Shown here: piece after piece, positions 12,701 through 30,100 of the stretch
How the letters are laid out: each line of letters starts with the position of its first letter
Position numbering within the stretch: position 1 is the stretch's first letter
Source of the DNA: Ornithinibacillus caprae
GTDB lineage: Bacteria; Bacillota; Bacilli; Bacillales; Amphibacillaceae
Direction: 5' to 3'
Length of the DNA: 64,000 nucleotides
Assembly (NCBI RefSeq): GCF_009728145.1
Contig: NZ_WOCA01000011.1
Location: 62,001-126,000, forward strand
The notes under the pieces: generated by a model
Databases searched by the model: none
Seen by the model: the letters and a program-made list of their open reading frames with translations, nothing else
What the model was told of the DNA's origin: nothing
Position numbers and translations under genes: made by a program

Positions 12701-12729
12701 TTGACTTTTTTTGTTTTTCGATTTATACT
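12701..12729 (+). promoter_or_regulatory. Sigma-A promoter of the sulfo-sugar locus
   Basis: TTGACT at 12701-12706, a 17-bp spacer and TATACT at 12724-12729, close to consensus. Transcription would start near 12736, about 135 nt before the first GH65 gene, so the operators lie downstream of the start and could act as roadblocks. The 306-bp gap between the peptidase and GH65 genes contains this promoter and the operators and no gene. Confidence 0.65.
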
Positions 12730-12775
12730 TCGAATATAAACTTTTTAAACTTTTATATTTTTTTCAATTAAAACT

Positions 12776-12850
12776 AAAGCGTTTTCATTTTTTTTAGCGA
12801 AAAACTAAAACGTTTTAGTTTTTAAAAGCCTTTTTACGAAAACGTTTTCG
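12776..12850 (+). promoter_or_regulatory. Three helically phased LacI/CcpA-type operators
   Basis: Three CG-centred palindromes: AAAGCGTTTTC (centre 12780/12781), a perfect 24-bp palindrome with core CTAAAACGTTTTAG (12800-12823), and CGAAAACGTTTTCG (12837-12850). Centres are 31 and 32 bp apart, that is three helical turns. CG-centred palindromes are the hallmark of LacI-family sites; the local LacI gene at 19311 is the likely partner. Site 1 read on the minus strand (TGAAAACGCTTTAG) is also close to the cre consensus for CcpA. Confidence 0.75.
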
Positions 12851-12871
12851 AATTTTGCAGGGGGCATTCAG

Positions 12872-15250
12872 ATGATAGAGTATTCTTTGGGGAAAGATGA
12901 ATTCAAGGACTGGCTTGTATCAGAAGTTGAGTTTTCTCCAGATTCTTTAGGGAAATGTGAATCTATTATGTATCTTGGAAACGGATACATGGGACTTAGG
13001 TCTGTAACGGAAGAACCATATCTCAAAGAAACTAGGAATTTATTGGTTAGTGGAACGTTCAATAAAGCAGCAAAAAATGAAGTAACGGAATTACCGAATC
13101 TTGCTGATATTACCAGATTAGATATACGTGTAGACGGAGAGCGGTTTAGTTTAGAATTAGGTCAAACCAGTAGTTACCTTCGTCAATTGAACCTAAAGAC
13201 TGCTGAACTGACAAGGGAAGTAGAATGGGTCTCTCCGAAAGGGAAAGAACTTCGATTTTATTTTAGAAGATTCGTTTCTTTAGACAATTTGCACCTCATT
13301 GGTATGAAAATGGAAGTTGAAGCATTAAACGATCCGGTTCAATTATCATTTGATTCTGGAGTAAATGCACAAATGAGTAATTCGGGAGCACAGCATTTTC
13401 TAGAGGGTGAAAGAAGGATTTATAATCGACGTTTTATTGAATTAATTCAAACCACAAATCAATCTAATGTTGATATCGCCATCAATACAACACATAAACT
13501 AATGCTAAATGACAAAGAACTAAGCCTAGATCCTGATATGGATATGGGGCGACGCAAAGTATGGCTTACATTCAATGTGTCATTAGAGCCGGGGGACGTT
13601 TTTACTTCTGAAAAAATAACAACAATTCATACCAGTCGAGATAAGGAATTCGATAAGCCGGGCTATGAGATAGGTAAACTAAGAGATTTTGCTCATAACG
13701 AATTAAAAGAAAGCGCTTTAAAAGGGTATGATAAACTCTTTGATTCACATGTGCGGGTATGGCAAGAAAAGGTCTGGGAAGCATATGATTTTGAAGTTGA
13801 TAGTAAACATACATTTGATCAGTTAGCAATTAGATTTGCATTATATCATTTGACGATAATGACGCCAGCACATGATGACAGAATGGGAATTGGTGCTAAA
13901 GCATTAAGCGGACAGGGATATAAAGGCCATTCATTTTGGGATACAGAAATATTTATTTTACCATTCTTTACGTACTCTAATCCGCAAATTGCCAGGTCCC
14001 TATTAACTTATCGATATCGCGGTTTAGCAGGTGCTCGAAAAAAAGCTATAGAAAACGGATATAAAGGTGCAATGTATCCTTGGGAAGCTGCTTGGCCAAC
14101 TGATGGAGAAGTTACTCCAGCGTGGGGGGATGTCGACATCGTCACTGGAGAACAGACAAAAATCTGGTCAGGACTGATTGAGCAACATATTACATCAGAT
14201 ATTGCGTTTGCGATTTATCAATATTACGTCGTTACGAATGACCAAGATTTTATGGATGATTACGGATATGAAATGATCTTTGATACAGCGAACTTTTGGG
14301 CTAGTCGCTTAGAATGGAACGATGATAATCAAGAATATCATATCAATGATGTTATAGGTCCAGATGAATATAAGGAGCATGTGAACAACAATGCTTATAC
14401 GAATCACATGACCTATTTTAATTTGCGTTTAGCTATTCAATTTTATGAATTATTACAAACTGAAAATCCAGCGAGGTTTAAGCAATTAAATGAATTGTTG
14501 AGATTAGATCCAAACTATAGGGATTGGAAATTAAAAGCAGAAAACCTATATTTGCCGTCTCCTAGAAAAGAAGATTTAATTATTCCACAGGATGATACGT
14601 ACTTGAGCTTAAAACAAATTGATTTATCAAGATACAAGAATCAAAAACAGGTTAGAGGTATTTATAAGGATTATAATCCAGAGCAGATTAACCAATTACA
14701 AGTAACAAAGCAAGCAGATGTTTTAGTTTTACTCTATCTCTTAGAGCAAACATTTTTAAATGAAGATCAACGTTTCTCATATGAAGTAAAGGAAAGTAAT
14801 TTTAATTTCTATGAACCGAAAACATTGCATGATTCTTCATTAAGCTTAGCAACACATGCAATCCTAGCTAATGATATTGAAAAAGGTGAATTAGCGTATT
14901 CTTTATTTAAAGAAGCTAGTGAAATTGATCTTGGCCCATCGATGCAAACATCGGATGATGGAGTACATGCAGCATCTATTGGGGGGATTTGGTCTGCAGC
15001 TGTATTTGGTTTTGCTGGAGTGAGAATTAGCTGCAATGGAAGGCTCAAGTTGAATCCATGTATTCCTAAGCATTGGAACAAAATGAAATTCACAATTTAT
15101 TGGCATGGTCAGCCGTTGTTCATAACGATTACGCAAGAAACATTATCTGTGGTAGCTGTAAACAAGGAGTTAGTTGAGTTAGAGGTATTTGGAAAAGTAT
15201 ATACTTGTGAGGATCACATGGAGATACCAATTAGCAGTGCTAATGAATGA
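12872..15250 (+). CDS. Glycoside hydrolase family 65 phosphorylase, first copy
   Basis: 792-residue cytoplasmic disaccharide phosphorylase. GH65 enzymes split alpha-glucosides (maltose, trehalose, kojibiose, nigerose, glucosylglycerol and others) with phosphate to beta-glucose-1-phosphate. N-terminal beta-sandwich to about residue 270, linker, (alpha/alpha)6 barrel about 320-700, small C-terminal sheet. GHSFWDTEIF lines the active site and the catalytic Glu is E499 in DVIGPDEYKEHVNNN; the phosphate-site HDSSLS segment is present. The linkage specificity cannot be read from sequence. It opens the locus directly after the operators and differs clearly from the second GH65 gene at 23594. Confidence 0.92.
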   Translation: MIEYSLGKDEFKDWLVSEVEFSPDSLGKCESIMYLGNGYMGLRSVTEEPYLKETRNLLVSGTFNKAAKNEVTELPNLADITRLDIRVDGERFSLELGQTSSYLRQLNLKTAELTREVEWVSPKGKELRFYFRRFVSLDNLHLIGMKMEVEALNDPVQLSFDSGVNAQMSNSGAQHFLEGERRIYNRRFIELIQTTNQSNVDIAINTTHKLMLNDKELSLDPDMDMGRRKVWLTFNVSLEPGDVFTSEKITTIHTSRDKEFDKPGYEIGKLRDFAHNELKESALKGYDKLFDSHVRVWQEKVWEAYDFEVDSKHTFDQLAIRFALYHLTIMTPAHDDRMGIGAKALSGQGYKGHSFWDTEIFILPFFTYSNPQIARSLLTYRYRGLAGARKKAIENGYKGAMYPWEAAWPTDGEVTPAWGDVDIVTGEQTKIWSGLIEQHITSDIAFAIYQYYVVTNDQDFMDDYGYEMIFDTANFWASRLEWNDDNQEYHINDVIGPDEYKEHVNNNAYTNHMTYFNLRLAIQFYELLQTENPARFKQLNELLRLDPNYRDWKLKAENLYLPSPRKEDLIIPQDDTYLSLKQIDLSRYKNQKQVRGIYKDYNPEQINQLQVTKQADVLVLLYLLEQTFLNEDQRFSYEVKESNFNFYEPKTLHDSSLSLATHAILANDIEKGELAYSLFKEASEIDLGPSMQTSDDGVHAASIGGIWSAAVFGFAGVRISCNGRLKLNPCIPKHWNKMKFTIYWHGQPLFITITQETLSVVAVNKELVELEVFGKVYTCEDHMEIPISSANE

Positions 15251-15258
15251 TATTAACT

Positions 15259-15275
15259 GGGTGATTCACTCACCC
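15259..15275 (+). other. Small intercistronic hairpin
   Basis: GGGTGA / TCACCC hairpin in the 64-nt gap between the first GH65 gene and the binding-protein gene, without a T run. It may stabilise or process mRNA; weak. Confidence 0.35.
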
Positions 15276-15314
15276 TTAATATAAAAACATATAACATTTC
15301 AAGGAGGAATACAC

Positions 15315-16568
15315 ATGAAATTCCGTAAAAGTATTTTGGTATTAATAGCAATTTCATTCGTTTTATTCTTAGCTGCATGTGGTGGCAATGATGGAGAAAA
15401 TGAAGAAGGTACTCAAGGGAATAACGAATCATCAGGTCAAAAGATAACTATTTTCCAAAGTAAAGTAGAAATTTCAGAGCAGTTAGAAGCTTTAGCTAAG
15501 GAATATGAAGAAGAAACAGGTGTCGAGGTAGAAGTTTGGGGAACAACTGGTGATGATTACTTTCAGCAATTACAAATTCGCCTAAACAGTAATCAAGGTC
15601 CATCTATATTCAGTGTTCGTCATATTACAGAAGCTGAGAAACTTGCATCTTATTTATATGATATGAGTGATGAGCCATTTGTTGAGCATATTGCTCCTAA
15701 TATGGCTTTAGAGCATGATGGAAAAGTTGTCGGTGTACCATATGGTGTTGAAGGTTTTGGTTTAGTATATAACAAAGATTTAGTAAGTCCAGAAGATATT
15801 GCAGACTACGATTCTTTTATAAATACGTTAGAGAAATTTAATGGAGAAGATGTTGCTGGACTTAGTCTTGCACAAGAAGCATACTTCTTAATTGGACACT
15901 TAAGTAACTACCCATTCTCACTACAAGAAGATAATTATGAATTTATTCAGCGAATGAATGCTGGAGAAGTAACGATGGCAGAAACAGAAGAATTCCAAGC
16001 ATTTGGTCAAATGATGGAAGATTTAAGAGCAAATATTCCTAATCCACTTGATATAACATATGATGAGCAAATTGGTGATTTTGCAACAGGTAAAACTGCT
16101 ATGATCCACCAAGGTAACTGGGCGTATGGTATGTTTGAGGATTATGAGTTAGATTTTGAAATCGGTATGGCTCCACTACCTTTATTAGATAACGATAAAT
16201 TAGAAGTTGGTGTAGGTAGTAACTGGGGGATCAACGGAACTAAAGATGAAGAAGAAGTTCAAGCAGCAGCAGACTTTTTAGATTGGATGCACACTAGTGA
16301 AACAGGAATGAGATATTTAGTAGAGGAATTTGGATTTGTACCAGCATTTACGAATATTGAAACAAATGACTTGGATCCATTATCTCAAGCTGTTCTAGAT
16401 GCTACAAATAGTGGGGAAACAATTCCTTGGTCACATAATTATTTCCCAGCTAACGTTATTGTAAATGACTTTGTACCTGCAACACAAAACTTCTTCTTAT
16501 CAGAGGATGTAACAGGTGAAGAGCTTATTGACAGTCTAGATTCAGCATGGCAAAACGCTACTAAATAA
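15315..16568 (+). CDS. ABC sugar importer, substrate-binding lipoprotein
   Basis: 417-residue extracytoplasmic solute-binding protein of the carbohydrate family (MalE/MsmE-like, CUT1). Lipoprotein signal peptide with lipobox LAAC, Cys at residue 23, followed by a Gly/Asn/Glu-rich linker. Mature features: FQSKVEISEQLEALAKEYEE, VPYGVEGFGLVYNKD, and the GKTAMIHQGNWA region characteristic of family-1 sugar-binding proteins. Strong AAGGAGGA ribosome site. Followed by a perfect hairpin and then two cognate permeases. No ATPase gene is in the locus, so a shared MsmX-type ATPase is expected elsewhere. Ligand is probably the (sulfated) oligosaccharide processed by the locus. Confidence 0.93.
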   Translation: MKFRKSILVLIAISFVLFLAACGGNDGENEEGTQGNNESSGQKITIFQSKVEISEQLEALAKEYEEETGVEVEVWGTTGDDYFQQLQIRLNSNQGPSIFSVRHITEAEKLASYLYDMSDEPFVEHIAPNMALEHDGKVVGVPYGVEGFGLVYNKDLVSPEDIADYDSFINTLEKFNGEDVAGLSLAQEAYFLIGHLSNYPFSLQEDNYEFIQRMNAGEVTMAETEEFQAFGQMMEDLRANIPNPLDITYDEQIGDFATGKTAMIHQGNWAYGMFEDYELDFEIGMAPLPLLDNDKLEVGVGSNWGINGTKDEEEVQAAADFLDWMHTSETGMRYLVEEFGFVPAFTNIETNDLDPLSQAVLDATNSGETIPWSHNYFPANVIVNDFVPATQNFFLSEDVTGEELIDSLDSAWQNATK

Positions 16569-16590
16569 TCATAAGACTATTTAATTTTTG

Positions 16591-16639
16591 GATAGGGAGA
16601 TAATATAGAGTATTACTCTACAATGATTATCTCCCTATC
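16591..16639 (+). promoter_or_regulatory. Perfect 14-bp intercistronic stem-loop
   Basis: GATAGGGAGATAAT and its exact complement ATTATCTCCCTATC enclose a 21-nt loop 22 nt after the binding-protein stop. No T run follows. Such hairpins after binding-protein genes commonly protect the upstream mRNA, giving more binding protein than permease. Partial termination is the alternative. Confidence 0.6.
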
Positions 16640-16788
16640 AATTTCTTATTTACCATACAATAGTTAGTATGAACTCCACTGATTCAAGATTTACTTGATC
16701 TACTTTAAGTATTATTTATCATCTTTGAAACATTGATCGTTATGGTATGTTTTGAAACATTATTCATGTAAGGAAAGAAGGGATTAAC

Positions 16789-17664
16789 GTGGCAAATAAA
16801 ATGACCAAGGGTTGGTTCGCTTTATTTACTGTCCCGCTATTAGTAATTTTTGTTACGGTAGTCATCATTCCATTCTTAATGGGTATCTATTATTCATTCT
16901 TTGATTGGGATGGAATTGGAGCAAATCCGATGGTTTTTGTTGGCCTTGAAAATTACACTCAATTATTTAGTGATCAACGCTTTTTGGATTCTGCATGGCT
17001 AACAGTAAAATTTACTATTTTAGCGCTTATATCTGTAAATATTTTAGGAATCACTTTCGCACTACTTGTGACTTCTGCGTTAAGAACTGTAAACGCAGCA
17101 CGAGCAATGTTATTTATGCCTAATTTAATTGGTGGTCTTATTTTAGGTTATATTTGGCAGTTTATTTTTACAGACGCATTTAAAATTATAGGAGAATCTA
17201 CAGGTTTTGGTGGGGTCTTCTTTAATTGGCTTTTAGATCCTGATTATGCTTTATATGCTCTTGTATTCGTTTTTACATGGCAAATGGCAGGGTATATGAT
17301 GATTATTTATATCGCTGGTATCCAAGGTATTTCAAATGAAATAATCGAAGCGGCGAAAATTGATGGTGCAAGCTACTGGCAAAAGCTTAGAAAAATCACG
17401 CTTCCTTTATTAATGCCTTCTATTACCATCAGCATGTTCTTAACGCTTTCTTTTGCATTTAAAATTTATGATGTGAACTTATCCTTAACTGGTGGAGGTC
17501 CAATTAACTCTACGGAGTTATTCGCATTGCATATATATAATGAAATTTTTGGATATGGAAATTATGGGTTCGGTCAAGCGAAGGCTGTAATCTTCTTTAT
17601 TGTTGTAGCTGTGGTAACATTAACACAAGTTTATATTACGAAGAAGAGGGAGGTAGAAATGTAA
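16789..17664 (+). CDS. Sugar ABC transporter permease (MalF/UgpA type)
   Basis: 291-residue CUT1 permease with six membrane segments. The EAA loop that docks the ATPase is at about residues 184-205 (EIIEAAKIDGASYWQKL). The GGGPINSTELFALHIYNE segment near the end is typical of this subfamily. GTG start with AAGGAAAGAAGGG upstream. One-base overlap (TAATG) with the next permease gene; together they form the heterodimeric channel for the binding protein at 15315. The 220-nt upstream gap holds the intercistronic hairpin and a TTTGAAACATT direct repeat (16724 and 16751). Confidence 0.93.
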   Translation: MANKMTKGWFALFTVPLLVIFVTVVIIPFLMGIYYSFFDWDGIGANPMVFVGLENYTQLFSDQRFLDSAWLTVKFTILALISVNILGITFALLVTSALRTVNAARAMLFMPNLIGGLILGYIWQFIFTDAFKIIGESTGFGGVFFNWLLDPDYALYALVFVFTWQMAGYMMIIYIAGIQGISNEIIEAAKIDGASYWQKLRKITLPLLMPSITISMFLTLSFAFKIYDVNLSLTGGGPINSTELFALHIYNEIFGYGNYGFGQAKAVIFFIVVAVVTLTQVYITKKREVEM

Positions 17665-18500
17665 TGAATATAAGCAAAATTATTAAAGAATTGTTACTCT
17701 TATTATTTTCATTAGTATTCCTATCTCCTGTATATATAATGGTTGTCAATTCATTTAAGAATAGACAGGAATTATATGAAAATGTAATGGCACTACCAGA
17801 ACAGTTTAGTCTTCAATATTATATTGATGCAATGGATAAAATGAATTTCCTAACAGCACTAGGAAACTCATTGTTTATCACCATTACATCAGTGATCTTT
17901 ATTGTAGCATTATCTTCAATGACAGCATGGATGCTTGCAAGAACGGATAACAAGCTAAGTAAATTTATTTTTATGACCTTTATTGCGACAATGCTTATTC
18001 CGTTTCAAACATTAATGATGCCGTTAATGCAATTCATGGATACCATTTCTAGTACGCTAAATATTCAAATGCTAAACACACGTGGCGGATTAATTTATAT
18101 GCATATAGGGTTTAATGCAGGAATGGCTGTATTTCTATATCATGGTTTTGTTCGATCCACTGTACCTATATCACTTGAAGAAGCAGCAACAATTGATGGA
18201 TGTTCCAAACTTGGCCTATTTTGGAAAATAGTATTTCCAATCTTAAAACCAATTACTGTAACAGTAATAATCTTAAATGTAATAGCCATATGGAATGACT
18301 TCCTATTACCATCTCTAACATTAACAGACACGGCATTACGTACGATCCCTCTATCCACATTCTACTTCTTTGGTGAATTTACCATCCAGTGGAATATGGC
18401 AATGGCTGGATTAACTCTAACTGTAATACCTGTCGTGATATTCTATGTGTTCGCACAAAAACACATCATAAAAGGAATCGGCGAAGGAGCAGTTAAATAG
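17664..18500 (+). CDS. Sugar ABC transporter permease (MalG/UgpE type)
   Basis: 278-residue second permease subunit of the CUT1 importer, six membrane segments. EAA loop SLEEAATIDGCSKLGLFWKI at about residues 169-190; the C-terminal QWNMAMAGLTL...QKHIIKGIGEGAVK tail is classic. Translationally coupled to the preceding permease. Imports the substrate of the locus using a general carbohydrate ATPase encoded elsewhere. Confidence 0.94.
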   Translation: MNISKIIKELLLLLFSLVFLSPVYIMVVNSFKNRQELYENVMALPEQFSLQYYIDAMDKMNFLTALGNSLFITITSVIFIVALSSMTAWMLARTDNKLSKFIFMTFIATMLIPFQTLMMPLMQFMDTISSTLNIQMLNTRGGLIYMHIGFNAGMAVFLYHGFVRSTVPISLEEAATIDGCSKLGLFWKIVFPILKPITVTVIILNVIAIWNDFLLPSLTLTDTALRTIPLSTFYFFGEFTIQWNMAMAGLTLTVIPVVIFYVFAQKHIIKGIGEGAVK

Positions 18501-18562
18501 GTGCCTGTCACTTGTCGGAATTTGTCGATGAATCTCCGCGTTTTTAACAGGAGGAATGTAGT

Positions 18563-19261
18563 ATGAATTACTCTGGTTTTATGGGAGGATTGTTTGCTCT
18601 TGCAGAATGGATCATGCGTTTTTCGGTGATCAATATGCTTTGGATCGTGACCAATCTTCCTATATTACTAATCGTCTTTATGATGATTTTAACTCCATCT
18701 AATTTAGCTATAGTTGTTCAAGCGGTACCGCTTGCGATTCTGTTACCTATATTATTTTTTCCGAGCCTAACCGCTGTTTTCGCAACAGTTAGAGATTGGA
18801 TACTTGATAAAGAACAGCCATCTTTAGTAAAAGCATATTGGAAACATTTAACGAGAAACTACAAGAATAGCTTTTTTTCTGGTGCAATATTGACTTTAGC
18901 TATCATTATTTGGGTCATTGACTTCAACTATTTTAAAGAACTAGATTTCTTACTAGGGCTATTGATGTTTATAGTGGGTGTAGCACTATACGTTTACATC
19001 ATGAATTACGTATCACTAAGTGTCCATTATGTAATGTCAAAAAAAGAGTTGTTTAAAAACGCGCTTCTAATTACGATAGGAAATCCATTATTATTTTTTT
19101 CCGTTTTACTAGGTAACTCATTGCTGTATTATCTGAGTTTTAGAATTTGGTTTCTGTTTTTGTTTTTCACAATATCTGTAAGCGCATTTTTAACATTCTT
19201 TGCATTTTTCCGTTTCACCCTTAGGGTAGAGGGAAAGGCAGCAAAGCTAAAAAGCCGCTAA
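18563..19261 (+). CDS. yesL: YesL family (DUF624) membrane protein
   Basis: 232-residue integral membrane protein with about five to six hydrophobic segments. N-terminus MNYSGFMGGLFALAEWIMRF and the NMLWIVTNLP stretch are characteristic of DUF624/YesL. YesL proteins nearly always accompany sugar ABC importers of glycan loci in Bacilli (for example the rhamnogalacturonan cluster), but their role is not established; an accessory role in transport is inferred. Ribosome site ACAGGAGGA. The upstream 60 nt contain a GGTGCCTGTCACTTGTC motif discussed separately. Confidence 0.9.
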   Translation: MNYSGFMGGLFALAEWIMRFSVINMLWIVTNLPILLIVFMMILTPSNLAIVVQAVPLAILLPILFFPSLTAVFATVRDWILDKEQPSLVKAYWKHLTRNYKNSFFSGAILTLAIIIWVIDFNYFKELDFLLGLLMFIVGVALYVYIMNYVSLSVHYVMSKKELFKNALLITIGNPLLFFSVLLGNSLLYYLSFRIWFLFLFFTISVSAFLTFFAFFRFTLRVEGKAAKLKSR

Positions 19262-19310
19262 ATTGTGATAAAATCAGCTTAATTTATATCTGTAAGAGGG
19301 TGACTTATGT

Positions 19311-20390
19311 ATGGCAACAATTAAAGATGTTGCGAAAAGAGCAGGTGTATCCAATAGTGTTGTATCCAGAGCATTTAATAACTATCCGGATATAAGTGAA
19401 AAAACGAGGCAAAAGATTTTTGATGTTGCCAAAGAATTAAATTATACTCCCAATATTGTGGCTAAAAATCTATCTTCTAAAAAGCAAAAAACAATCGGAT
19501 TAATAGCGTCTGGGATATTCACAGAAAATACAAAAGATACCATATCATTTGAGGTATTGAAAGGTGTTTATACTGGTGCACAAGAAAAGGAATATGAATT
19601 ATCCATATTTCTAATCGATTCTTTAAAACAAGAACAAAAGAGTTATACGCAGTTTTGTAGAGATCGGAAAATAGGTGGAATTATTCTACAAGGGATACGT
19701 ACGGATGATCGTTACTTTAAGGAACTAATGAATACGGATATTCCCTGCGTCATGGTTGATGTCGTATCAGACATAGAGAATCGATTAATTGGTAGTGTAA
19801 CTAGTGATAACTATGGAGCTAGTAAAAAGGTTGCCAAACACTTGCTTGAACATAATCACCGAAAAATTGCAGTAGTTGCCGGAACAAGGGAAACGTATGT
19901 TAACTCAGAACGATTCAAAGGGACGAAGAAAGCATTTGAAGAGTTTGGTCTAGAGCTTTCTGATGAGGATGTTATGTACGGTGAATTCGCTGAGGAAAAA
20001 GCATATTATTTAACCAAAACGTATTTAGAATATAAACAACCTACTGCCTTTATATGTTATAGCGATTTAATGGCCTATGGCGTAATGAGAGCAGTAAAAG
20101 AAAAAGGATTACGAATACCTGAGGATGTTTCTATTACAGGATTTGATGATTTATTAATAAGCAATTTTACCCAACCACGGCTTACAACTGTTAGACAGGA
20201 CTTTTTTGAAATGGGTAAGCAATCTGCGCTATTACTTCAACAGATGATGGAAAGCAAAGAGGGAAAAAAGTTAGTTTATGTAGAAAATGAATTTATGGAA
20301 CGAGATAGTGTTAGGTATTGTAACGAGAAGCAGAGAAAGGATGAATACAGCAATGGACAAACCGAATATTCTAATGATTATATCACATGA
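19311..20390 (+). CDS. LacI-family transcriptional regulator of the locus
   Basis: 359-residue repressor. Residues 2-50 are the LacI headpiece (IKDVAKRAGVSNSVVSRAF, hinge helix NIVAKNLSSKK). Residues 60-335 form the periplasmic-binding-like effector domain (TIGLIASGIF, GFDDLLISNFTQPRLTTVRQD). The last ~13 codons overlap the sulfatase start by 38 nt, linking it to the sulfatase-FGE-pgmB-GH65 segment. Its likely sites are the three CG-centred palindromes at 12776-12850. Effector is probably a sugar or sugar phosphate made by the pathway. Confidence 0.93.
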   Translation: MATIKDVAKRAGVSNSVVSRAFNNYPDISEKTRQKIFDVAKELNYTPNIVAKNLSSKKQKTIGLIASGIFTENTKDTISFEVLKGVYTGAQEKEYELSIFLIDSLKQEQKSYTQFCRDRKIGGIILQGIRTDDRYFKELMNTDIPCVMVDVVSDIENRLIGSVTSDNYGASKKVAKHLLEHNHRKIAVVAGTRETYVNSERFKGTKKAFEEFGLELSDEDVMYGEFAEEKAYYLTKTYLEYKQPTAFICYSDLMAYGVMRAVKEKGLRIPEDVSITGFDDLLISNFTQPRLTTVRQDFFEMGKQSALLLQQMMESKEGKKLVYVENEFMERDSVRYCNEKQRKDEYSNGQTEYSNDYIT

Positions 20391-21672
20391 TACGGGTAGA
20401 TATTTAGGAGCTTATGATCATAATGTTGAAACACCTGAGTTAAATGAACTAGCGGAAAATGGTGTGCGATTTGATAATTATTTTTGCTCACAGCCACAAT
20501 GTAGTCCTAGTAGAGGAAGTATTTTAACCGGGATGTATGGACATAACCACGGCATGCTAGGTTTAGCCCACATGGGACACTCTATGAATAAGGACGTCGA
20601 TACCATTCCATCTGAAATGAATAAGGCTGGATATGATACGTATTTGTTTGGATTTTTCCATGAATCGATTGATGGGCAATTGGACGGAGAAAAACTTGGG
20701 TATCAGCATGTAGTAGAAGTGCCAGGAAATGCAGCAAAGAATGTAACAGATAAAGTGGAGGCATTTTTAGAAGAACGATCAAAATCATCTAATCACTCTC
20801 CGTTTTATGCCTCGGTTGGATTTGAAGAAACTCATCGACCATTTGATGACTTTGAGCCAGTCCCCCTAGAATCTGTAGAAGTTCCTCCTTATTTACCTGA
20901 TACAAAAAAGGTTCGAGAGGATTTAGCATATTTCTATGGCTCGATAAAAGAACTTGATAGGAATGTGGGAAGAATAAAAAAATCGCTTGAAGAAAATGGG
21001 TTAGCGGACAATACTCTCTTAATCTATACAACCGATCATGGTATTGCGTTCCCTAGAGCAAAAGGTACCTTATTTGATGCGGGATTAGAGACAGCTTTAA
21101 TCATGAGGCTACCAAAGGGAATGAATAATGGTGGAAGAGTTCATGATGAGCTGCTGTGTAATATTGATTTACTGCCAACACTAGTCGAAATTGCAGGTGG
21201 TAATATTCCTGAAGGTATTGATGGAGCAAGCTTCTTACCATTATTGAAGGAAGATTCCTTCGATGGTCGAGAGAGCTTCTTCTGTGAGTTATCTTGGCAT
21301 GATCGTTATCACCCAATGCGAGGAATACGTACGACTAAGTATAAATATATACGAAATTTTGAAGATGGACCAAAGGTGTATCTTCCATTTGATATTCATG
21401 AAAGTTTATCAGGACAAGATGTTCGAGAAGGATATTATGTTTCGAATTCTGAAGAAGAGTTATACGACCTTGAAAAAGATCCTTTAGAAGAACATAATCT
21501 TGCGGATGATGAAAATTATAAGCAAGTTCTTCTTGATTTACGCTCAAAGGTTGAAAAGTGGATGAAGGATTCGAATGATCCATTACTAGAAGGGCCAATC
21601 CCTGGTGTAGAGGCTACGGAGTGGAAAGAAGAGATTGAATTAGGAAATGTTTATAAAGGTTCAAAAGAATAG
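20353..21672 (+). CDS. Cys-type sulfatase (S1 family), cytoplasmic
   Basis: 439-residue sulfate-ester (or sulfamate) hydrolase. The active-site signature CSPSRGSILTG starts at Cys50, matching CxPSRxxxLTG; this Cys must become formylglycine. Metal-site residues are visible in ISHDTGRYLGAYD near the N-terminus and in TTDHGIAF with KGTLFDAG around 225-245. The HDTGRYLG start and the overall length recall the heparan N-sulfatase-like S1 group (S1_8 of SulfAtlas, from memory). No signal peptide or membrane anchor, so it acts in the cytoplasm. ATG at 20353 has AAAGGATG 9 nt upstream; an ATG four codons earlier is possible. Overlaps lacI by 38 nt. Confidence 0.92.
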   Translation: MDKPNILMIISHDTGRYLGAYDHNVETPELNELAENGVRFDNYFCSQPQCSPSRGSILTGMYGHNHGMLGLAHMGHSMNKDVDTIPSEMNKAGYDTYLFGFFHESIDGQLDGEKLGYQHVVEVPGNAAKNVTDKVEAFLEERSKSSNHSPFYASVGFEETHRPFDDFEPVPLESVEVPPYLPDTKKVREDLAYFYGSIKELDRNVGRIKKSLEENGLADNTLLIYTTDHGIAFPRAKGTLFDAGLETALIMRLPKGMNNGGRVHDELLCNIDLLPTLVEIAGGNIPEGIDGASFLPLLKEDSFDGRESFFCELSWHDRYHPMRGIRTTKYKYIRNFEDGPKVYLPFDIHESLSGQDVREGYYVSNSEEELYDLEKDPLEEHNLADDENYKQVLLDLRSKVEKWMKDSNDPLLEGPIPGVEATEWKEEIELGNVYKGSKE

Positions 21673-21879
21673 ACGTTTTAAGTGATAATACGATCGACGG
21701 GAAATCGGACTAATCTCAACAACTTATGGGACCAATGCTAGGGCTGGTGACTCTAATATTGAAACCAGTCCTGTTTCTTATATTGGGTTACCACAAAGGT
21801 AAAAATTTTTATTGATCTATTCAACGTAGAACAGAATGGAATAGGCGAACATTTACTAAGCTCTAATGGAGATGACAAA

Positions 21880-22854
21880 ATGAAAGAAAATAAATCAAGT
21901 TGCTGTGGACCTAGTCGTATATTGAAAGAAGTAAATACAACACCTCCAAATGAACTTTTGAATAATTCATCTGTGTCCTCTGCAAAGATTTTTAATCAGG
22001 ATGAAATGGTGCATATTCCTGGAGGAAGGTTCTTAATGGGGACTAATTTAGAGGAAGGTTTTCCAGCTGATGGTGAGGGACCAGTAAGAGAAGTGGTAGT
22101 AGACCCCTTTTATATAGATTCTCAAACAGTAACAAATGGTGATTTTAAAGAATTTGTTGATGATACAGGATATATAACCGAAGCTGAACAATTTGGTTGG
22201 TCATTTGTATTTTATCAATTTATAAGTTCTCACACGGCAAAGAAAGTTCGTCAACGCGTACAACAAACTCCATGGTGGTTGGTAGTTGAAGGAGCAACGT
22301 GGAATCATCCAGAGGGACCCGATTCTACAATAGCTAACCGTTTAGACCATCCCGTGATTCATGTTTCCTGGAATGATGCCCAAGCTTATTGCAAATGGGC
22401 TGGAAAAAGACTACCTACAGAGGCAGAGTGGGAATTTGCTGCCCGAGGGGGATTGGAACAGAGATTATATCCATGGGGAGACGAGCTTTATCCAGACGGA
22501 AATCATTATTGTAATATATGGCAAGGGGATTTTCCGCGTCAGAATACGAAAGATGATGGTTATGTAGGTACAGCACCAGCAAAATCATTTCCTCCTAATG
22601 GTTATGGTCTCTATAATATTTCAGGAAATGTGTGGGAATGGTGTTCCGATTGGTTTACTAGCGATGTTCAGAGCCTAAAAGACAATCAAAATCCAACAGG
22701 ACCGAGAACCGGAGTGTCACGTGTCATGCGTGGAGGTTCTTACCTATGTCACCATTCTTATTGCAATAGATATCGAGTAGCAGCAAGGACATCAAACACT
22801 CCTGATAGTTCTACTGGAAATATTGGTTTTAGATGCGTAGTAACAAAAACATAA
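21880..22854 (+). CDS. Formylglycine-generating enzyme (SUMF1/FGE, O2-dependent)
   Basis: 324-residue sulfatase-activating oxidase: it oxidises the active-site Cys of the sulfatase to formylglycine using copper and O2. FGE-sulfatase fold from about residue 45 ([13 protein letters not shown]) to the end. The two catalytic copper-binding cysteines are C290 and C295 in [15 protein letters not shown], the exact pattern of human C336/C341, so this is a genuine FGE and not just a homologue. Other motifs: [34 protein letters not shown]. Oddity: the N-terminal tail carries CCGPSR (residues 8-13), itself a CxPSR motif. It sits 207 nt after the sulfatase gene. Confidence 0.95.
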
Positions 22855-22887
22855 CAACGAGCAATTACTGATGAGAAAGGGATTAGC

Positions 22888-23562
22888 ATGAAACATTTAC
22901 CGAAATTATTTATTTTTGATTTGGATGGAGTTATTACCGACACGGCAGAATTTCACTATTTAGCTTGGAAAAAGCTAGGTGAAAAACTAGGAGTTTCTAT
23001 AGATAGAAATTTTAATGAACAATTAAAGGGTATTAGTAGAATGGAATCGTTAGAACGTATACTTGCTTTAGATCCATCTCTATCTTTATCCGAAGAAGAA
23101 AAAGAAATATTAGCAACGGATAAAAATGAATATTATAAGCAATTAATCGAGACCGTTAACGAGGAACAAACGTTACCTGGGGTTGAGGTGTTACTTCAAA
23201 CCATCAAAGAAAACAATATTAAAATAGCACTAGGCTCAGCGAGTAAAAATGCGTCCATGGTACTGGAAAAGTTGGGATTAACAAATTATTTTGATTACAT
23301 TGTAGATGCTGCAAAGGTGAAAAAAGGAAAACCAGATCCAGAAACATTTACAACTGCAGCAGATGCATTGTCTATAGCTTATCCAGACTGTGTAGGAATT
23401 GAGGATGCAGCAGCTGGTGTTCATGCTATTAATGATGCCAATATGTTTTCAGTTGGTGTTGGTTCAATGGATCATTTAGCAAAAGCGAATTTTGTTGTGC
23501 ATGACACATCTAAATTGGATTTTGAAGAAATTGTACAGCACTTTTCGAACTGGAAAAAATAA
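22888..23562 (+). CDS. pgmB: Beta-phosphoglucomutase
   Basis: 224-residue HAD-superfamily enzyme converting beta-glucose-1-phosphate to glucose-6-phosphate. Nucleophile Asp and acid/base Asp in FDLDGVITDTAEFH (D8 and D10 by usual alignment); substrate loop LKGISRMESLERIL; motif II LGSASKN; motif III KKGKPDPETF; motif IV GIEDAAAGVHAI. The product of GH65 phosphorolysis is its substrate, and the gene lies immediately before the second GH65 gene, an arrangement classic for maltose, trehalose and kojibiose use. Confidence 0.96.
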   Translation: MKHLPKLFIFDLDGVITDTAEFHYLAWKKLGEKLGVSIDRNFNEQLKGISRMESLERILALDPSLSLSEEEKEILATDKNEYYKQLIETVNEEQTLPGVEVLLQTIKENNIKIALGSASKNASMVLEKLGLTNYFDYIVDAAKVKKGKPDPETFTTAADALSIAYPDCVGIEDAAAGVHAINDANMFSVGVGSMDHLAKANFVVHDTSKLDFEEIVQHFSNWKK

Positions 23563-23593
23563 GTGACAAAAGACAAGCAGGAGTGTTCTTAAA

Positions 23594-25867
23594 ATGACAT
23601 GGAAACTAACAAAGTCGGAATTAGATAATCAAAACCTGTTAGTGAATGAAAGTCTACTTTCACTGGGGAATGGTTATCTAGGTGTTAGAGGGAATTTTGA
23701 AGAAGGATATCCAAAAGAGTTTAAATCGATTCGTGGTACATATATTAATGCTTTCCACGACGAAACAGAAATAACATATGGCGAGAAGTTGTACGCCTTT
23801 CCAGAAAAGCAGCAAAAGCTAGTTAATATAATGGATGCACAAGGTATTACTATTTATATTGATGATGAGATTTTTTCCTTATTTGATGGTGAAGTTATCG
23901 ATTTTGAACGAAATTTACATGTGGATCATGGTTTTGCTGAGCGTATGATCCACTGGAGATCTCCTAATGGAAAAGAGGTTAAGCTTCACTTTAGAAGAGT
24001 GGTTTCTTTTCATACAAAAGAGCTATTTGCAGTTGATATTAAAATAGAACCAATTCAACATATTAATCAAGTGAAAATAGTATCTACTGTTGAAGGAGAT
24101 GTAACAAATTTTGTTGATAAGAGCGATCCAAGAGTAGCATCAGGACATGCGAAACGTCTCCAAGTTTCTGATGTCAGAAAACAGGATGCGTATAGTATTG
24201 TTAAGGATACAACATATGTTACCAATTTAGAAGTTGCATGCGTAACGTCAACAATAATCACATCTAAAACTTCATACGAGAGCAATATTACGGATACTGG
24301 CGTAAAAGAGGTTTATGTTTGTGAGGGTAATATGCCAATACACTTTACCAAATTTAATGTATATACAGATACACTCAGGCATGGTAATGAGGTCGTAGAG
24401 AAAGCATTGGCAATTCAAAGAGACCTTGCAGACAAAACATTTGAAGATCTTATACTATTACAAAAGGAATATTTAGATAATTTCTGGAGCATATCAGATA
24501 TAGAAATTGACGGAGATGATGAATTACAAGAAGGAATTCGTTTTAATCTATATCATCTCTTACAATCTGCCGGAAAAGATTCTGTAAGTAATATTGCGGC
24601 AAAAGGGTTATCGGGAGAAGGGTATGAGGGACATTATTTCTGGGATACTGAGATTTATATGTTCCCAGTATTCTTAATGACAAATCCAGGAATTGCAAAA
24701 AAATTATTGCTACATCGTTATTCGGTTTTAGATAGCGCTCGAGAACGGGCGAAAGAAATGGGACATAAGCAGGGTGCTTTATTCCCTTGGCGTACAATAA
24801 CTGGTGGGGAAAGCTCTGCGTTTTTCCCAGCAGGAACAGCTCAGTATCATATTAGTGCAGACATAGCATATAGCTACATCCAATACTATTTAGTAACGAA
24901 GGATGAAGTGTTTTTAGAAGAGTATATGGCAGAAGTTTTGTTTGAAACAGCTCGACTTTGGATTGATACAGGACACATGTTAGATGGAAAATTTAGAATT
25001 GATGATGTTACAGGACCAGATGAGTATACATGTATAGTAAATAATAATTACTATACCAACGCTATGGCGAAGCATAATTTATTATGGGCTGCTAAGGTCT
25101 ATCATCAATTAGAAAAAAGTAATTCGTTATCTGAACTGGCAAATAAGCTACAGCTAACTGAACAAGAAGCTAAAGAATGGCAAGTTGCTGGAGAAAATAT
25201 GTATCTTCCGTATGACGAAACTCTGAAAATCAATGCACAAGATGATAGCTTTTTGAGGAAAGGTCGCTGGGATATAGAAAATACACCAAAAGAGAAGTTC
25301 CCACTGTTACTTAACTATCATCCATTAACTTTATATCGTTATCAAGTATGTAAGCAAGCTGACACCGTACTTGCTCATTTTCTACTAGAGGATGAACAGG
25401 ATGAGGAAACAATCCGAAACTCATATAACTATTATGAGAAAATAACTACACATGATTCTTCACTTTCTTATTGTGTATTTAGTATTATGGCCTCTAAGCT
25501 AGGATATGATGAGAAGGCATATGAGTATTTTAACGAGACAGCACGTTTAGACTTGGATAATACCCACGGGAATACAAAAGACGGTCTCCATATGGCTAAT
25601 ATGGGTGGAACTTGGTTAGCAATTGTATTCGGATTTGCTGGATTACGTATAAAAGAAAGCGGGATTTCCTTGCAGCCAACGTTACCGAAAAAGTGGAAAT
25701 CACTTCAGTTTCATTTGCAATATCAAGGTAGATTAATACAGGTTCGGATGGAGACAGAGACAATAACATATACCATAACAGAAGGTGAAGATCTGTCGAT
25801 TACTCATCATGGGAAGTCTGTAACGTTAGAACAAGGAAAAGCTGTCGAATTACCAATTCAAGCTTAA
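23594..25867 (+). CDS. Glycoside hydrolase family 65 phosphorylase, second copy
   Basis: 757-residue inverting alpha-glucoside phosphorylase. N-terminal sandwich with SLLSLGNGYLGVRGNFEEG, barrel motif GEGYEGHYFWDTEIY, catalytic Glu E477 in DVTGPDEYTCIVNNNYYTN, phosphate-site residues in THDSSLS. The TGPDEYT/IVNNNYYTN form is that of maltose/kojibiose-phosphorylase-like GH65 members, whereas the first copy has IGPDEYKEHVNNN, so the two enzymes likely have different specificities. It forms the end of the operon, 31 nt after pgmB; a weak terminator follows. Confidence 0.93.
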   Translation: MTWKLTKSELDNQNLLVNESLLSLGNGYLGVRGNFEEGYPKEFKSIRGTYINAFHDETEITYGEKLYAFPEKQQKLVNIMDAQGITIYIDDEIFSLFDGEVIDFERNLHVDHGFAERMIHWRSPNGKEVKLHFRRVVSFHTKELFAVDIKIEPIQHINQVKIVSTVEGDVTNFVDKSDPRVASGHAKRLQVSDVRKQDAYSIVKDTTYVTNLEVACVTSTIITSKTSYESNITDTGVKEVYVCEGNMPIHFTKFNVYTDTLRHGNEVVEKALAIQRDLADKTFEDLILLQKEYLDNFWSISDIEIDGDDELQEGIRFNLYHLLQSAGKDSVSNIAAKGLSGEGYEGHYFWDTEIYMFPVFLMTNPGIAKKLLLHRYSVLDSARERAKEMGHKQGALFPWRTITGGESSAFFPAGTAQYHISADIAYSYIQYYLVTKDEVFLEEYMAEVLFETARLWIDTGHMLDGKFRIDDVTGPDEYTCIVNNNYYTNAMAKHNLLWAAKVYHQLEKSNSLSELANKLQLTEQEAKEWQVAGENMYLPYDETLKINAQDDSFLRKGRWDIENTPKEKFPLLLNYHPLTLYRYQVCKQADTVLAHFLLEDEQDEETIRNSYNYYEKITTHDSSLSYCVFSIMASKLGYDEKAYEYFNETARLDLDNTHGNTKDGLHMANMGGTWLAIVFGFAGLRIKESGISLQPTLPKKWKSLQFHLQYQGRLIQVRMETETITYTITEGEDLSITHHGKSVTLEQGKAVELPIQA

Positions 25868-25872
25868 TTTAA

Positions 25873-25900
25873 AGGGAAGTAGCTGTTACTTCCTTTCTAT
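25873..25900 (+). terminator. Weak terminator after the second GH65 gene
   Basis: GGAAGTA / TACTTCC hairpin with a short loop followed by TTTCTATTT. Modest stem and interrupted T run. Confidence 0.45.
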
Positions 25901-25990: not shown

Positions 25991-26799
25991 ATGCAACGTG
26001 TAATGAATCAAGATATCGCGGGAGTTATGTGGAAAACTGTTTCCGAAGCATGCAACCTTGCTTGTGACTATTGCTATTATAGTCGTTGTAATGGTAGACC
26101 AGAAAAAATTGAAAAAATAGACGAAGAAATTTTGGAGAAATTTATGAAAGAGTACATGGCATTTAAACATGGAGTTGTTCCATTTTCGTGGCAGGGTGGT
26201 GAACTACTATTAGCAGGTTTAGACTTTTTCAAAAAAGTAGTTGCTCTTTAGGCAACTTATGCTCCTAGAAATACCATTATTAGTAATTCCATTCAAACAA
26301 ATGGGATACAGTACGGAGATTTTTTATACGAAGTATTTGATGCTTGGTACAATGATGGAAATCCAATTATTTCGGTTCGCTTTTTTGATAACGTATTGTC
26401 AAGCTATTTAAATTATCAGGCTGAATTATGTATTCATCAAGAAGTATGTCCAAAGACTTTGATTTTAGGAACAATATGGTGATGCGTACCCATGTGACTT
26501 TTATATTCATGAGGATTATCGTTTAGGCATCATTCGGGTAGATTCATTAGAACAAATTATCCAATCTGAGAAATGGGAAAATTTTTTAGCAGTGAAACCT
26601 AACCTACCTGAACAGTGTAAATCTTGTGAGTTTCTAAAGATTTGTCATGGAGGATGTCCAAGAAACCGAGTTCAGAATTTTTAATGATACTACTGTTGAG
26701 TATTTTTGTGAAAGTTATAAGCAGTTTTTTATCTATGCTGATAACCGGATGTAAGAGCTTGCAGATAGAGTAAAACAGTATCATATGAGAAGGTATTAA
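25991..26799 (+). pseudogene. Decayed anaerobic sulfatase-maturating enzyme (radical SAM, anSME)
   Basis: The first 86 codons read as an anSME N-terminus with the radical-SAM cluster CNLACDYC and FSWQGGE. Codon 87 is TAG where a Gln (CAG) is expected. The same frame continues past it to NSIQTNG, then jumps to YGDFLYEVFDAW, so most of the SAM barrel is deleted. A frameshift near 26460 precedes the SPASM segment (YPCDFYIHEDYRLG, CKSCEFLKICHGGCPRN), and further stops follow before YFCESYKQFFIYA and the end near 26799. Intact homologues are about 370-400 residues. It converted sulfatase Cys or Ser to formylglycine without oxygen; here it is dead. Confidence 0.9.
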
Positions 26800-26856: not shown

Positions 26857-26929
26857 TGGAGCATAGCGGGATCGAACCGCTGACCTTTTGTCTGCCAGAC
26901 AAACGCTCTCCCAGCTGAGCTAATGCCCC
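26857..26929 (-). tRNA. tRNA-Ala (GGC anticodon)
   Basis: A full 73-nt cloverleaf: acceptor GGGGCAT/ATGCTCC, D arm GCTC...GAGC, anticodon arm TTTGT-CTGGCAG-ACAAA giving anticodon GGC, variable AGGTC, T arm AGCGG-TTCGATC-CCGCT, discriminator A. The 3' CCA is not encoded. Its 3' end faces the sulfatase locus. Confidence 0.96.
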
Positions 26930-27169: not shown

Positions 27170-30100
27170 ATGAAACACTCAACTGTTCGTAAGGTTTTTA
27201 ATCTAGTTCTAATTTTCGCTATTGTTTTCATGAATTATTCATCAGTTTTTGCTATGAAAGCATCTGCGGAAAGTAACGAAGAACTGGCAGAGGATTTATT
27301 CATTTCAGAGTATATTGAAGGAAGTTCGTTTAATAAAGCAATTGAAATATTTAATGGAACTGGGGAAACAGTTGATTTATCAGATTACCAAGTTGAACTG
27401 TACAGCAATGGGGCAGAGTCACCAAGTCAAACACTAACCTTAGATGGTGTGTTGGAGCATGGTGATGTATTTGTAATGGCACATAGTAGTGCAGATCCAG
27501 CAATTCTTGAAGTTGCTGATCTTACAAATGGTAGTATCATTAATTTTAACGGGGATGACGCATTTACCTTAGTAAAAAATGATAACTTAATAGATGTAAT
27601 AGGTGTGATTGGTGAAAGGACTAATTTTGCAGCGGACGTAACACTCGTTAGAAATGCTTCAATTGCAGCACCTAGTACAACATATAATGAAACAGAATGG
27701 ACAGATTATCCAAGTAATACCTTTGCATATCTTGGCAGCCATACAATGGATGGTATAGATCCAGAAGAGCCAGGTGATCCTGGTGACCCGGAAGAACCCG
27801 GTGATGAATACGCTATCGGAGATGCTCGTAATTTAAGTGATGGTACAGTCGTAACAGTTGAGGGGATTGTAACAGCAGATAATGCTGCTATTAGCAATGG
27901 GTCTCAATTTACAACTTACATACAAGATGAAACGGGTGGAATTAATTTATTTGCTTATCAACAAGGACAATTACCGGACCTTGTTAAAGGAGATAGAGTT
28001 CAAGTAACAGGTGAACTAGACTCCTATAATGGGTTAAAAGAAATTATTCCACAATCGATAGAAATTTTAGAGCAAGATCAAGCATTACCAGAAGCACAAA
28101 CGATAACTCTTGAAGACCTTCAAGATCCAGCAATTGCAGAATCATTTGAAGGGGAGCTCGTACAAGTAAATGGGTTTATTAATAATATTCCAAGTAGTCC
28201 TGCTGGTGGTGGATATAATGTATCATTAATTGATGCAGATTTTAACGGAACAACGCTACGAGTAATGGAAAATGCACTAGATCTATCATTAGTTGAATCT
28301 AATATGTGGTACGATATCACAGCTATTGTGAGCCAATATAATGATTATCAGTTAATTCCAACGGAGCAAGCAGATATCCAGGTAGCAGAGGAGCAACCAG
28401 AACCTCCTTCTGCAGAAGGACTCTATGAAACTACGGTTGAGAGAGTGACAGATGGGGATACCATCCGTGTTGCTGATCCAGTTTTTGGAGAAACAAGAGT
28501 GCGTTTTCTAAATATGGATACACCGGAAACGTATGCGGCGCATAATAAGGATCCACAAAGAGCAGAGATAAATGAAAATCAAAAATACTATGGTGACCTA
28601 GCAACAGATTATATTAGTGAGCTAATTCAACCAGGTGATGAAATTTATTTAAAGGTAGGCTCAGAACCTACGGATGATTATGGTCGAATTTTAGCGGAAG
28701 TAATTCGTAAGGAAGATGGTCTAAATATTAACTTAGAAATGGTAGCTCAAGGGTATGCATCTACATATTTCTTAGCACCTATTGATGAAGAAGCGTATCC
28801 TGTTTATCAAGAAGCAGTGAAGGAAGCAAAAGATGCCGGATTAGGGATTTGGAATCCAGAAGATCCATTATTGGAGTTACCATTTGTATTCCGTGCATTT
28901 GATGATCAAAAAGGATTGCAGCGATATGTTGGTAATTCTGACACAATGGAGTATGTAGATCCTGTTGATTGGTCAGATGTTCCAGTTGAAAAACGTGTCT
29001 TCTTCTCTAGTGCAGAAGAAGCGGAATCCTATGGATATACTCCAGTTGATGGAGGTGGCGAAGCAGATCCGAATATCCTTGAATTACAATTGATAAGTAT
29101 GAATGATCTGCATGGGAAAATTGATCAGGAATATAGTCTTGACCCTGATGGGGATGGTACTTTTGATATGTATGGTCGTATGGATTATACGGCGGCAGCG
29201 ATAAAAGAACGTGAACAAGAAAATCCAAATACATTAATCGTTCATGCAGGTGATATGATTGGTGGAAGTTCTCCAGTATCTGGTCTCTTACAGGATGAAC
29301 CTACTGTTGAAATTATGGAGGAAATTGGCTTTGATGTAGGAACGGTAGGTAACCATGAGTTTGATGAAGGACTTGATGAATTACTACGCATGGTGAATGG
29401 TGGAGATCATCCTGAGGGTAAAGGTACGGAAGATTATGATGGAATGAATTTCCCGGTTTTATGTGCAAATTGTGTATATGAGGATACTGGGGAGTTATTC
29501 TTACCTCCATATCATGTAGAAGAGGTGGATGGTGTTGAAATTGGATTCGTTGGTGTCAACACAACGGAAACAGTAAATATGGTTATGCCTTCTTCTTTAG
29601 AAAATGTAGCATTTACTGATGAAGTAGATGCAGTGAATGATGCTGTAGAAGATTTAACTTCTCAAGGTATTGAAGCAATTATTGTATTAGCACATATGCC
29701 TGCATATCAATCTGGTGATAGCGCAACAGGTGATGCAGCTGAATTGGCTCATGGTGTTGATGATGCAGTGGATGTCATTTTCGCAGCACATAACCATCAA
29801 GTCAATAACGTAATTGTTGATAACAAATTAATAGTTCAAGCATCAGAATATGGTAAAGCATTCGCTGATGTAGATCTTGAAATTGATCGCACTACAGGAG
29901 ATATTGTTCATAAAGAAGCGGAAATTGTTTTTGTAAAACAAAATGATTACACGCCAGATGAAACAGTAGCAACAACACTATCTTACTATGAAGAAGCAAT
30001 TGCTCCTATTGTCAATGAGGTAGTAGGATATAATGGGCAAGAGCTAACAGGTAGTTATACTAATGACAGTGACCATGGGCTTGGAAACTTAATTGCTGAT

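Follow-up and report, generated by a model that had tools for sequence, protein, structure and literature searches.

What is a sulfatase doing among sugar phosphorylases? The question is raised by a ten-gene run in a 64,000-nucleotide stretch of the genome of Ornithinibacillus caprae (contig NZ_WOCA01000011.1, positions 62,001 to 126,000; this whole stretch is called the window below), and the answer that appears most probable to us, at roughly 0.6, is the uptake and use of a sulfated trehalose, most likely 2-sulfotrehalose. On the combined evidence of gene neighbourhoods and sequence motifs, sulfotrehalose is the best-supported candidate substrate, because of the specificity residues of one of the two phosphorylases (GH65B), the trehalose phosphotransferase system (PTS) and TreR genes found beside sister sulfatases, and the Stf0 and TreT genes found near distant relatives. 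All ten genes lie on the + strand and form one co-directional run (12872-25867; open reading frames of the window, with families assigned by Pfam and NCBIfam), and the members listed in the initial annotation, that is, two glycoside hydrolase family 65 (GH65) enzymes, a binding protein, two permeases, YesL, LacI, a sulfatase, its formylglycine-generating enzyme (FGE) and beta-phosphoglucomutase (PgmB), are all present in the order it gave. ABC denotes the ATP-binding cassette type of importer.

12872-15250 (+): GH65A, a GH65 enzyme of the kojibiose-phosphorylase type (alpha-1,2), with Pfam GH65 N, m and C domains
15315-16568 (+): extracellular, lipoprotein-like sugar-binding protein of an ABC importer (SBP_bac_8, SBP_bac_1)
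16789-17664 (+): sugar ABC permease 1, MalF type (BPD_transp_1, UgpA/MalF-like)
17664-18500 (+): sugar ABC permease 2, MalG type (BPD_transp_1, GlcU/MalG-like)
18563-19261 (+): YesL family (DUF624) membrane protein (PF04854)
19311-20390 (+): LacI-family regulator (PF00356 and Peripla_BP_3)
20353-21672 (+): Cys-type S1 sulfatase, apparently cytosolic, the proposed sulfotrehalose sulfatase (PF00884 and SGSH_C)
21880-22854 (+): FGE, sulfatase maturase, with an N-terminal CCGPSR motif (PF03781, E 1.7e-90)
22888-23562 (+): PgmB (TIGR01990, 260.5 bits, cut-off 189.4)
23594-25867 (+): GH65B, a GH65 enzyme of the presumed trehalose-phosphorylase type (Pfam GH65 domains; loop PWRTITGGESSAFFPAGTAQYHISADI)

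The solved structure closest to the binding protein is 9xor, a 'maltose-binding protein' (E 1.8e-57), and no transporter ATPase was found among the ten operon genes. In the pathway that we propose, the binding protein and the two permeases would import the intact sulfated sugar, powered by an ATPase encoded elsewhere, and LacI would repress the operon via three operators. In the cytosol, Cys50 of the sulfatase would become formylglycine through the FGE, and the activated enzyme would take the sulfate off; GH65B together with phosphate would cleave the free trehalose into glucose and beta-glucose 1-phosphate, and PgmB would turn the latter into glucose 6-phosphate. GH65A could act on a glucosylated version of this sulfated sugar, or on some other substrate, and release its alpha-1,2-linked glucose. 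We infer the substrate, the position of the sulfate, desulfation ahead of phosphorolysis and the role of GH65A from the observations that follow.

Co-occurrence of sulfatase and GH65 genes elsewhere had been set beforehand as the test of the link between them, and the two were found together in 14 clusters, that of the window among them. Named genomes scanned with the sulfatase gave 31 pattern matches, 19 relatives and 18 loci. All ten genes were identified in 11 of the 18 loci, i.e. those of Oceanobacillus limi (L013), Evansella tamaricis (L014), Piscibacillus halophilus (L023), Salirhabdus euzebyi (L028) and Planococcus/Planomicrobium (L015-L019, L021, L022), and no GH65 gene was in view at the other seven (L020, L024-L027, L029, L030). 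Together with L065, L066 and the window, this gives the 14 Bacillales clusters; L005 and L006, apparently the genomes of L028 and L023, were left out of the count, and genes at locus edges are cut (GH65B in L015-L019, L021 and L022, GH65A in L023, L065 and L066). Four gene orders are seen: three clusters are arranged as in the window, one has the FGE gene last, seven have the FGE-sulfatase pair first and three have the sulfatase-FGE pair last. Preservation of the same ten genes across 14 clusters in four orders indicates that the link between sulfatase and GH65 is real.

The sulfatase subfamily is rare, being present in 9 of 397 genomes of the order (E 1e-40) and 9 of 398 genomes of the phylum (1e-90), the O. 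caprae genome counted in both cases, and in 2 of 246 genomes of the Enterobacter family. Outside the cluster, GH65B relatives are widespread: a match at 1e-90 was obtained in 89 of 299 genomes, with an identity of at least 46% in about 40, and no sulfatase relative was in view in the 21 GH65B regions outside the clusters. GH65A relatives were detected in 15 of 199 genomes at 1e-120; in the eight regions outside the clusters that served as controls (about 48-66% identity, copies near 40% being left out), neither a sulfatase nor GH65B was in view (8/8), and all eight carried two ABC permeases, seven a LacI-family gene (39-58% identity) and six PgmB. Given these stand-alone GH65A and GH65B units without a sulfatase, the operon has the look of two units, one kojibiose-type and one trehalose-type, joined around a sulfatase. 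Some sulfatase-free GH65B clusters (L133:6260-8320, L120, L121) hold a GDE/GH63-like glycosidase (GDE_N_bis, MGH1-like) instead.

Six CsKP positions (64, 392, 394, 402, 416 and 585) separate GH65 specificities according to one study, with the kojibiose phosphorylase motif given as EEAPxx, the trehalose motif as TRIGPP in T. bispora and the maltose motif as KV[MF]NES (PMC8537180). GH65A has E, E, A, P, W and N at these positions, which fits the kojibiose motif as given there, and its closest solved structure is the kojibiose phosphorylase 3wiq (E 4.5e-133), with glucosylglycerol phosphorylase a weaker match (E 1.1e-95); W391 and E392 of the +1 site are kept, and T417 is replaced by S. Judged by its sequence, GH65A is of the kojibiose-phosphorylase type. 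Nigerose and glucosylglycerol, both once listed as alternative substrates, drew no support from the six-position motifs: nigerose is disfavoured because the motif of GH65A fits kojibiose, no nigerose phosphorylase sequence being on hand for comparison, and glucosylglycerol for the same reason and because its phosphorylase is the more distant match. GH65B has K, R, I, A, P and P, four of which (R, I, P, P) agree with TRIGPP in its published form, and carries SAF in place of the SAY of the T. brockii trehalose phosphorylase. The loop of GH65B is kept across all 14 clusters; in relatives from other loci, it has SAY, SAF, SSY, SPY or similar. The HDSSLS and GPDEY segments of GH65B line up with kojibiose and maltose phosphorylases, so that the phosphate-binding Ser-Ser pair, whose role in GH65 is treated in a separate paper (PMC8626586), and the general acid Glu are present. 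The specificity residues thus suggest that GH65B is trehalose-phosphorylase-like. No characterised trehalose phosphorylase was among the solved structures matched, and the plasmid matches were named merely 'glycosyl hydrolase family 65'.

When GH65A proteins of the clusters (12) were compared with the stand-alone ones (8), six filtered positions were found to differ (181, 420, 595, 598, 606 and 627), of which D420 (A or G in the stand-alone proteins) is part of loop 3; the loop with specificity position 585 contains two more, R595 (G) and Y598 (F). In the corresponding comparison of linked GH65B with the 21 relatives outside the clusters, just two filtered positions differ (204 and 407).

The sister group of the sulfatase provides a further connection to trehalose. 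In a tree of 52 rows built by a quick method, with support from the SH-like approximate likelihood ratio test (SH-aLRT), the sulfatases of the GH65 operons form a clade of 15 rows (SH-aLRT 99), that is, the 14 GH65-linked rows and L020, and the sister clade has eight rows (SH-aLRT 98), including a PTS group of five (SH-aLRT 100). A trehalose-type PTS is encoded beside three of the eight sister sulfatases, namely L024 (TIGR01992, 619.8 bits, cut-off 591.95), L027 (NF008236, 409.1 bits, cut-off 409, although short of the cut-off of TIGR01992) and L070, whose PTS shares 83% identity with that of L027, and TreR is encoded beside L027 (TIGR02404, 242.8, cut-off 211.95). Phosphotrehalase was matched in 12 of 16 genomes or records, in eight of them above the cut-off, including all four tested PTS-linked genomes (that of L070 not among them) and the genome of the window; at seven of the eight above-cut-off loci, a trehalose-type PTS adjoins the phosphotrehalase gene. 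Because a separate PTS-phosphotrehalase locus exists in the four PTS-linked genomes, the sulfatase-linked PTS appears to be a second copy, and because the genome of the window also has such a locus, free intracellular trehalose would need a phosphorylase. L027 and L070 come from two Enterobacter-family genomes, where the sulfatase gene is divergent from the second trehalose-type PTS; the Enterobacter sulfatase gene had no match in the E. coli collection.

Among more distant relatives, a plasmid search with the sulfatase returned 64 records, the best of which after Bacillales were from haloarchaea (36-46% identity), including Natronococcus, Natrialba magadii, Natronosalvus, Halopiger and Natrinema. 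A TreT gene is located 2-10 kb from the sulfatase relative in four of the 13 archaeal regions inspected (L031, L034, L038, L058), Natrialba magadii being represented among the four, and for L031 the family membership of TreT was confirmed by fold family. A Tsukamurella locus (L037) contains a sulfatase relative (37%), FGE, CysC, CysD and a Stf0 that matches the 1tex Stf0 (E 9.5e-94); loci of Streptomyces (L035) and Deinococcus (L036) contain an ABC importer, a ROK regulator and FGE. Natrialba magadii contains sulfotrehalose according to nuclear magnetic resonance data (PMC3403918). No Stf0 was detected in any of the 16 bacterial genomes tested, cluster-bearing ones included, so the cluster-bearing bacteria look like consumers; synthesis of sulfotrehalose by these bacteria themselves is disfavoured as far as Stf0 goes, other sulfotransferase families not having been searched. 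An archaeal sulfotransferase was not located in the plasmid records, which alone were searched.

The sulfatase is of the Cys type and appears to lack a signal peptide, in line with the initial annotation. Its maturation motif C-S-P-S-R (Cys50) is invariant in 23 of 23 aligned relatives, and its start is likely 20353, not 20287, given that homologues start at the equivalent Met. In a structure model built from 23 rows (mean predicted local distance difference test score, pLDDT, 82), the first predicted strand comprises residues 5-11, which, with the start at 20353, leaves no room for a signal peptide; both the sulfatase and the FGE look cytosolic. The best eight Protein Data Bank matches to the modelled fold are sulfamidase chains (4mhx, template modelling score 0.81), followed by S1_8 lambda-carrageenan sulfatases, and by sequence, S1_8A ranks first (9bb9, E 1.8e-46). 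Sulfamidase removes sulfate from the C2 nitrogen of a terminal alpha-glucosamine (2-N-sulfated), and the sulfamidase-like fold of the model would, by analogy, suit a 2-sulfated alpha-glucoside. Phe (F101) stands in place of the GKWH Lys, a residue that many S1 sulfatases share and that is not taken as defining, and aligned relatives are hydrophobic at this position. The genome encodes three PF00884 proteins in total, two of them outside the operon.

Several observations weigh against sulfated trehalose. The sulfotrehalose of the initial annotation stands as a candidate on the trehalose-related evidence given above, but the part that did not fall into place is GH65A, whose kojibiose motif is unexplained by, and not needed for, plain sulfotrehalose. 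Within GH65B, position 64 is K, as in maltose phosphorylases (T in trehalose phosphorylase), and position 402 is A where the motif has G, the loop being gapped relative to CsKP so that positions 402 and 416 were read via an alignment with maltose phosphorylase. The closest relative of the importer found outside the sulfatase clusters (65-76%) belongs to L133, a GH65B cluster without a sulfatase, and the importer is therefore not visibly sulfate-specific. The L020 sulfatase falls in the GH65-operon clade, yet no GH65 is in view there, and the sister sulfatases have a glucose-type PTS in two of eight cases (L067, L026), GPH symporters at L029 and L030 (one also with GH2 and GH43) and an ABC importer at L025. 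TreT was not seen in 9 of the 13 archaeal regions inspected, and the four regions with TreT share one subclade with L062, where none is in view, so that they probably represent one inherited arrangement; other archaeal regions contain heparinase II/III (L032), more sulfatases (L032, L059, L060), GH78 (L060) or nothing telling. Stf0 is near just one relative, 37% identical, on the opposite strand and 4.5 kb off. Altogether, the neighbours of the wider sulfatase relatives vary (glucose-type PTS, GPH symporters, GH2/GH43, GH78), and the family is not uniform.

The difficulty with GH65A would be met by a sulfated trisaccharide of the selaginose type, alpha-Glc-(1->2)-alpha-Glc-(1<->1)-alpha-Glc, from which GH65A would take the alpha-1,2 glucose and the sulfatase the sulfate, with GH65B splitting the trehalose. 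This reading, which overlaps partly with that of sulfated trehalose, seems to us possible but doubtful. It accommodates the presence of a kojibiose motif in GH65A next to a trehalose-like motif in GH65B, both kept in all 14 clusters, the occurrence of GH65A relatives outside the clusters in LacI/ABC units of their own without GH65B or sulfatase (8/8 regions), and the six changed positions of linked GH65A, including D420, R595 and Y598, which look as if the acceptor site had been altered; however, these three residues lie exactly in the loops (398-439 and 593-606) where the GH65A model has pLDDT below 50, and two GH65 enzymes could act on two separate substrates. To our knowledge, no sulfated trisaccharide of this type has been described, and the word 'selaginose' appears in the open-access literature searched in a single, unrelated paper.

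Alternatively, the target of the sulfatase might be the sulfated glucose unit as such, whether in glucose 2-sulfate or in sulfated kojibiose or another alpha-glucoside, with trehalose as no more than one carrier, in which case phosphorolysis may come first and release glucose sulfate. The sister sulfatases that adjoin a glucose-type PTS (L067, L026) or GPH symporters (L029, L030) without GH65 are compatible with such a role, but GH65 enzymes presumably need an unsulfated glucose in the -1 site, and the links to trehalose PTS, TreR, TreT and Stf0 are specific for trehalose, which makes this reading rather unlikely. Very unlikely, in our assessment, is a sulfatase that is a general sulfate scavenger, or whose substrate has nothing to do with those of the GH65 enzymes, and that came to its place in the operon by accident: the varied neighbours of wider relatives speak for it, but all 14 clusters retain the ten genes although the position of the sulfatase-FGE pair differs, LacI operators are present and the sulfatase has its own dedicated FGE. 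Sulfated trehalose is thus the reading that we retain. A much broader proposal can be put forward only tentatively: an intracellular sulfatase family of Bacillota, Enterobacteriaceae, Actinomycetota and haloarchaea might recycle sulfotrehalose via four entry routes (ABC importer with trehalose phosphorylase, trehalose PTS with phosphotrehalase, symporter, and the cell's own pool), and at the same time the operon of the window might use an undescribed sulfated alpha-1,2-glucosyl-trehalose through GH65A.

The operon is flanked by the following candidate signals and by the remnant of a gene.

12701-12729 (+): promoter-like site TTGACT-17-TATACT upstream of the operon (consensus match only)
12773-12851 (no strand assigned): three LacI-type operators (12773-12788, 12804-12819, 12836-12851)
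25872-25896 (+): terminator-like stem-loop after GH65B (consensus match; the region has 9 against 6.5 in shuffles)
25991-26684 (+): decayed gene of an anaerobic sulfatase maturase (anSME, radical SAM), broken into three pieces (TIGR03942 matches)

The middle operator (12804-12819) is a perfect palindrome, ACTAAAACGTTTTAGT. All three LacI-type palindromes are upstream of the first gene, with no others in the 64 kb; the operator pattern gave five strand-matches at three sites compared to 0.06 expected, and none of 100 shuffles reached five (a shorter pattern was equalled by 1 of 100 shuffles). The seven further clusters that were inspected (L013, L014, L028, L015, L017, L019, L022) all have comparable palindromes 5' of GH65A. 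The promoter scan overall was not above chance (52 promoter-like sites vs. a shuffle mean of 62.7).

PF03781 extends across the whole FGE, and an FGE is encoded in 14 of 14 clusters. Past GH65B, the three maturase pieces (25991-26251, 26252-26482 and 26469-26684) correspond to TIGR03942 positions 2-78, 208-260 and 261-331 of 363; about 130 model codons are gone between the first two, a stop closes the first piece, and the reading frame of the last piece differs. The gene has internal stops, and in a profile search of the genome, its score was far below the cut-off. At L069, L084 and L085, the sulfatase relative is directly followed by an intact anaerobic maturase gene, that of L069 being 75% identical to the first piece, and such a gene is in view also at L080, L081, L083 and L086; in the 16 genomes, four (G397, G398, G400, G406) have one above the cut-off. 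From the dead anaerobic maturase here, the FGE in every cluster and the intact maturases beside relatives, the lineage seems to have switched from oxygen-independent to oxygen-dependent sulfatase maturation. The FGEs of the sulfatase clusters start with CC-x-x-x-R, and the CCGPSR of the window (21880-21930) includes C-x-P-S-R, the motif by which FGE recognises sulfatases. The strict form of this N-terminal motif was present in 19 and the looser form in 22 of the 24 FGEs compared, two haloarchaea included; it is possibly a pseudo-substrate or a metal-loading motif, and a limited literature search found nothing on it.

Between the dead maturase gene and the following gene is a tRNA-Ala (GGC) at 26857-26929 (-). 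The gene at 27170-30868 (+) encodes a 1232-aa protein with lamin-tail, OB-fold, staphylococcal-nuclease, metallophosphatase and 5'-nucleotidase domains, and a protein of similar size comes after the cluster in O. limi (L013); 31069-33147 (-) encodes a 693-aa protein with ankyrin repeats.

The proposed system resembles several known ones in part. Operons of GH65 trehalose or kojibiose phosphorylases likewise combine ABC import of an intact alpha-glucoside with cytosolic phosphorolysis and PgmB, but are separate units without a sulfatase in view (21 GH65B and 8 GH65A regions), whereas the window joins both types with a sulfatase and FGE. The treP-treA-treR PTS operon of Bacillus and Enterobacteriaceae likewise serves trehalose use, and the sister sulfatases adjoin a second trehalose-type PTS; the canonical operon has no sulfatase, and its sugar enters phosphorylated, not free. 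The nearest proteins to the window sulfatase, S1_8 sulfatases by sequence and human sulfamidase (SGSH) by fold, share about 25% identity with it and differ from it in the signal peptide and in the GKWH Lys. Bacteroidetes polysaccharide utilisation loci bear exported sulfatases and likewise couple desulfation to sugar use; the window system would import a small sugar first. The Stf0 pathway of mycobacteria, that of trehalose 2-sulfotransferase, involves the same metabolite in the direction of synthesis, with the operon of the window on the side of use and the Tsukamurella relative near Stf0.

Some haloalkaliphilic archaea contain sulfotrehalose as a major solute. Trehalose 2-sulfate is also a building block of mycobacterial sulfolipids (PMC1224877). 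No pathway for the return of sulfotrehalose to the carbon and sulfur cycles was found in the open-access literature searched. If the proposed reading is true, the operon would name every enzyme needed for sulfotrehalose use, provide a case of a sulfatase that works in the cytosol alongside glycoside phosphorylases, and offer a new tool for recognising trehalose 2-sulfate.

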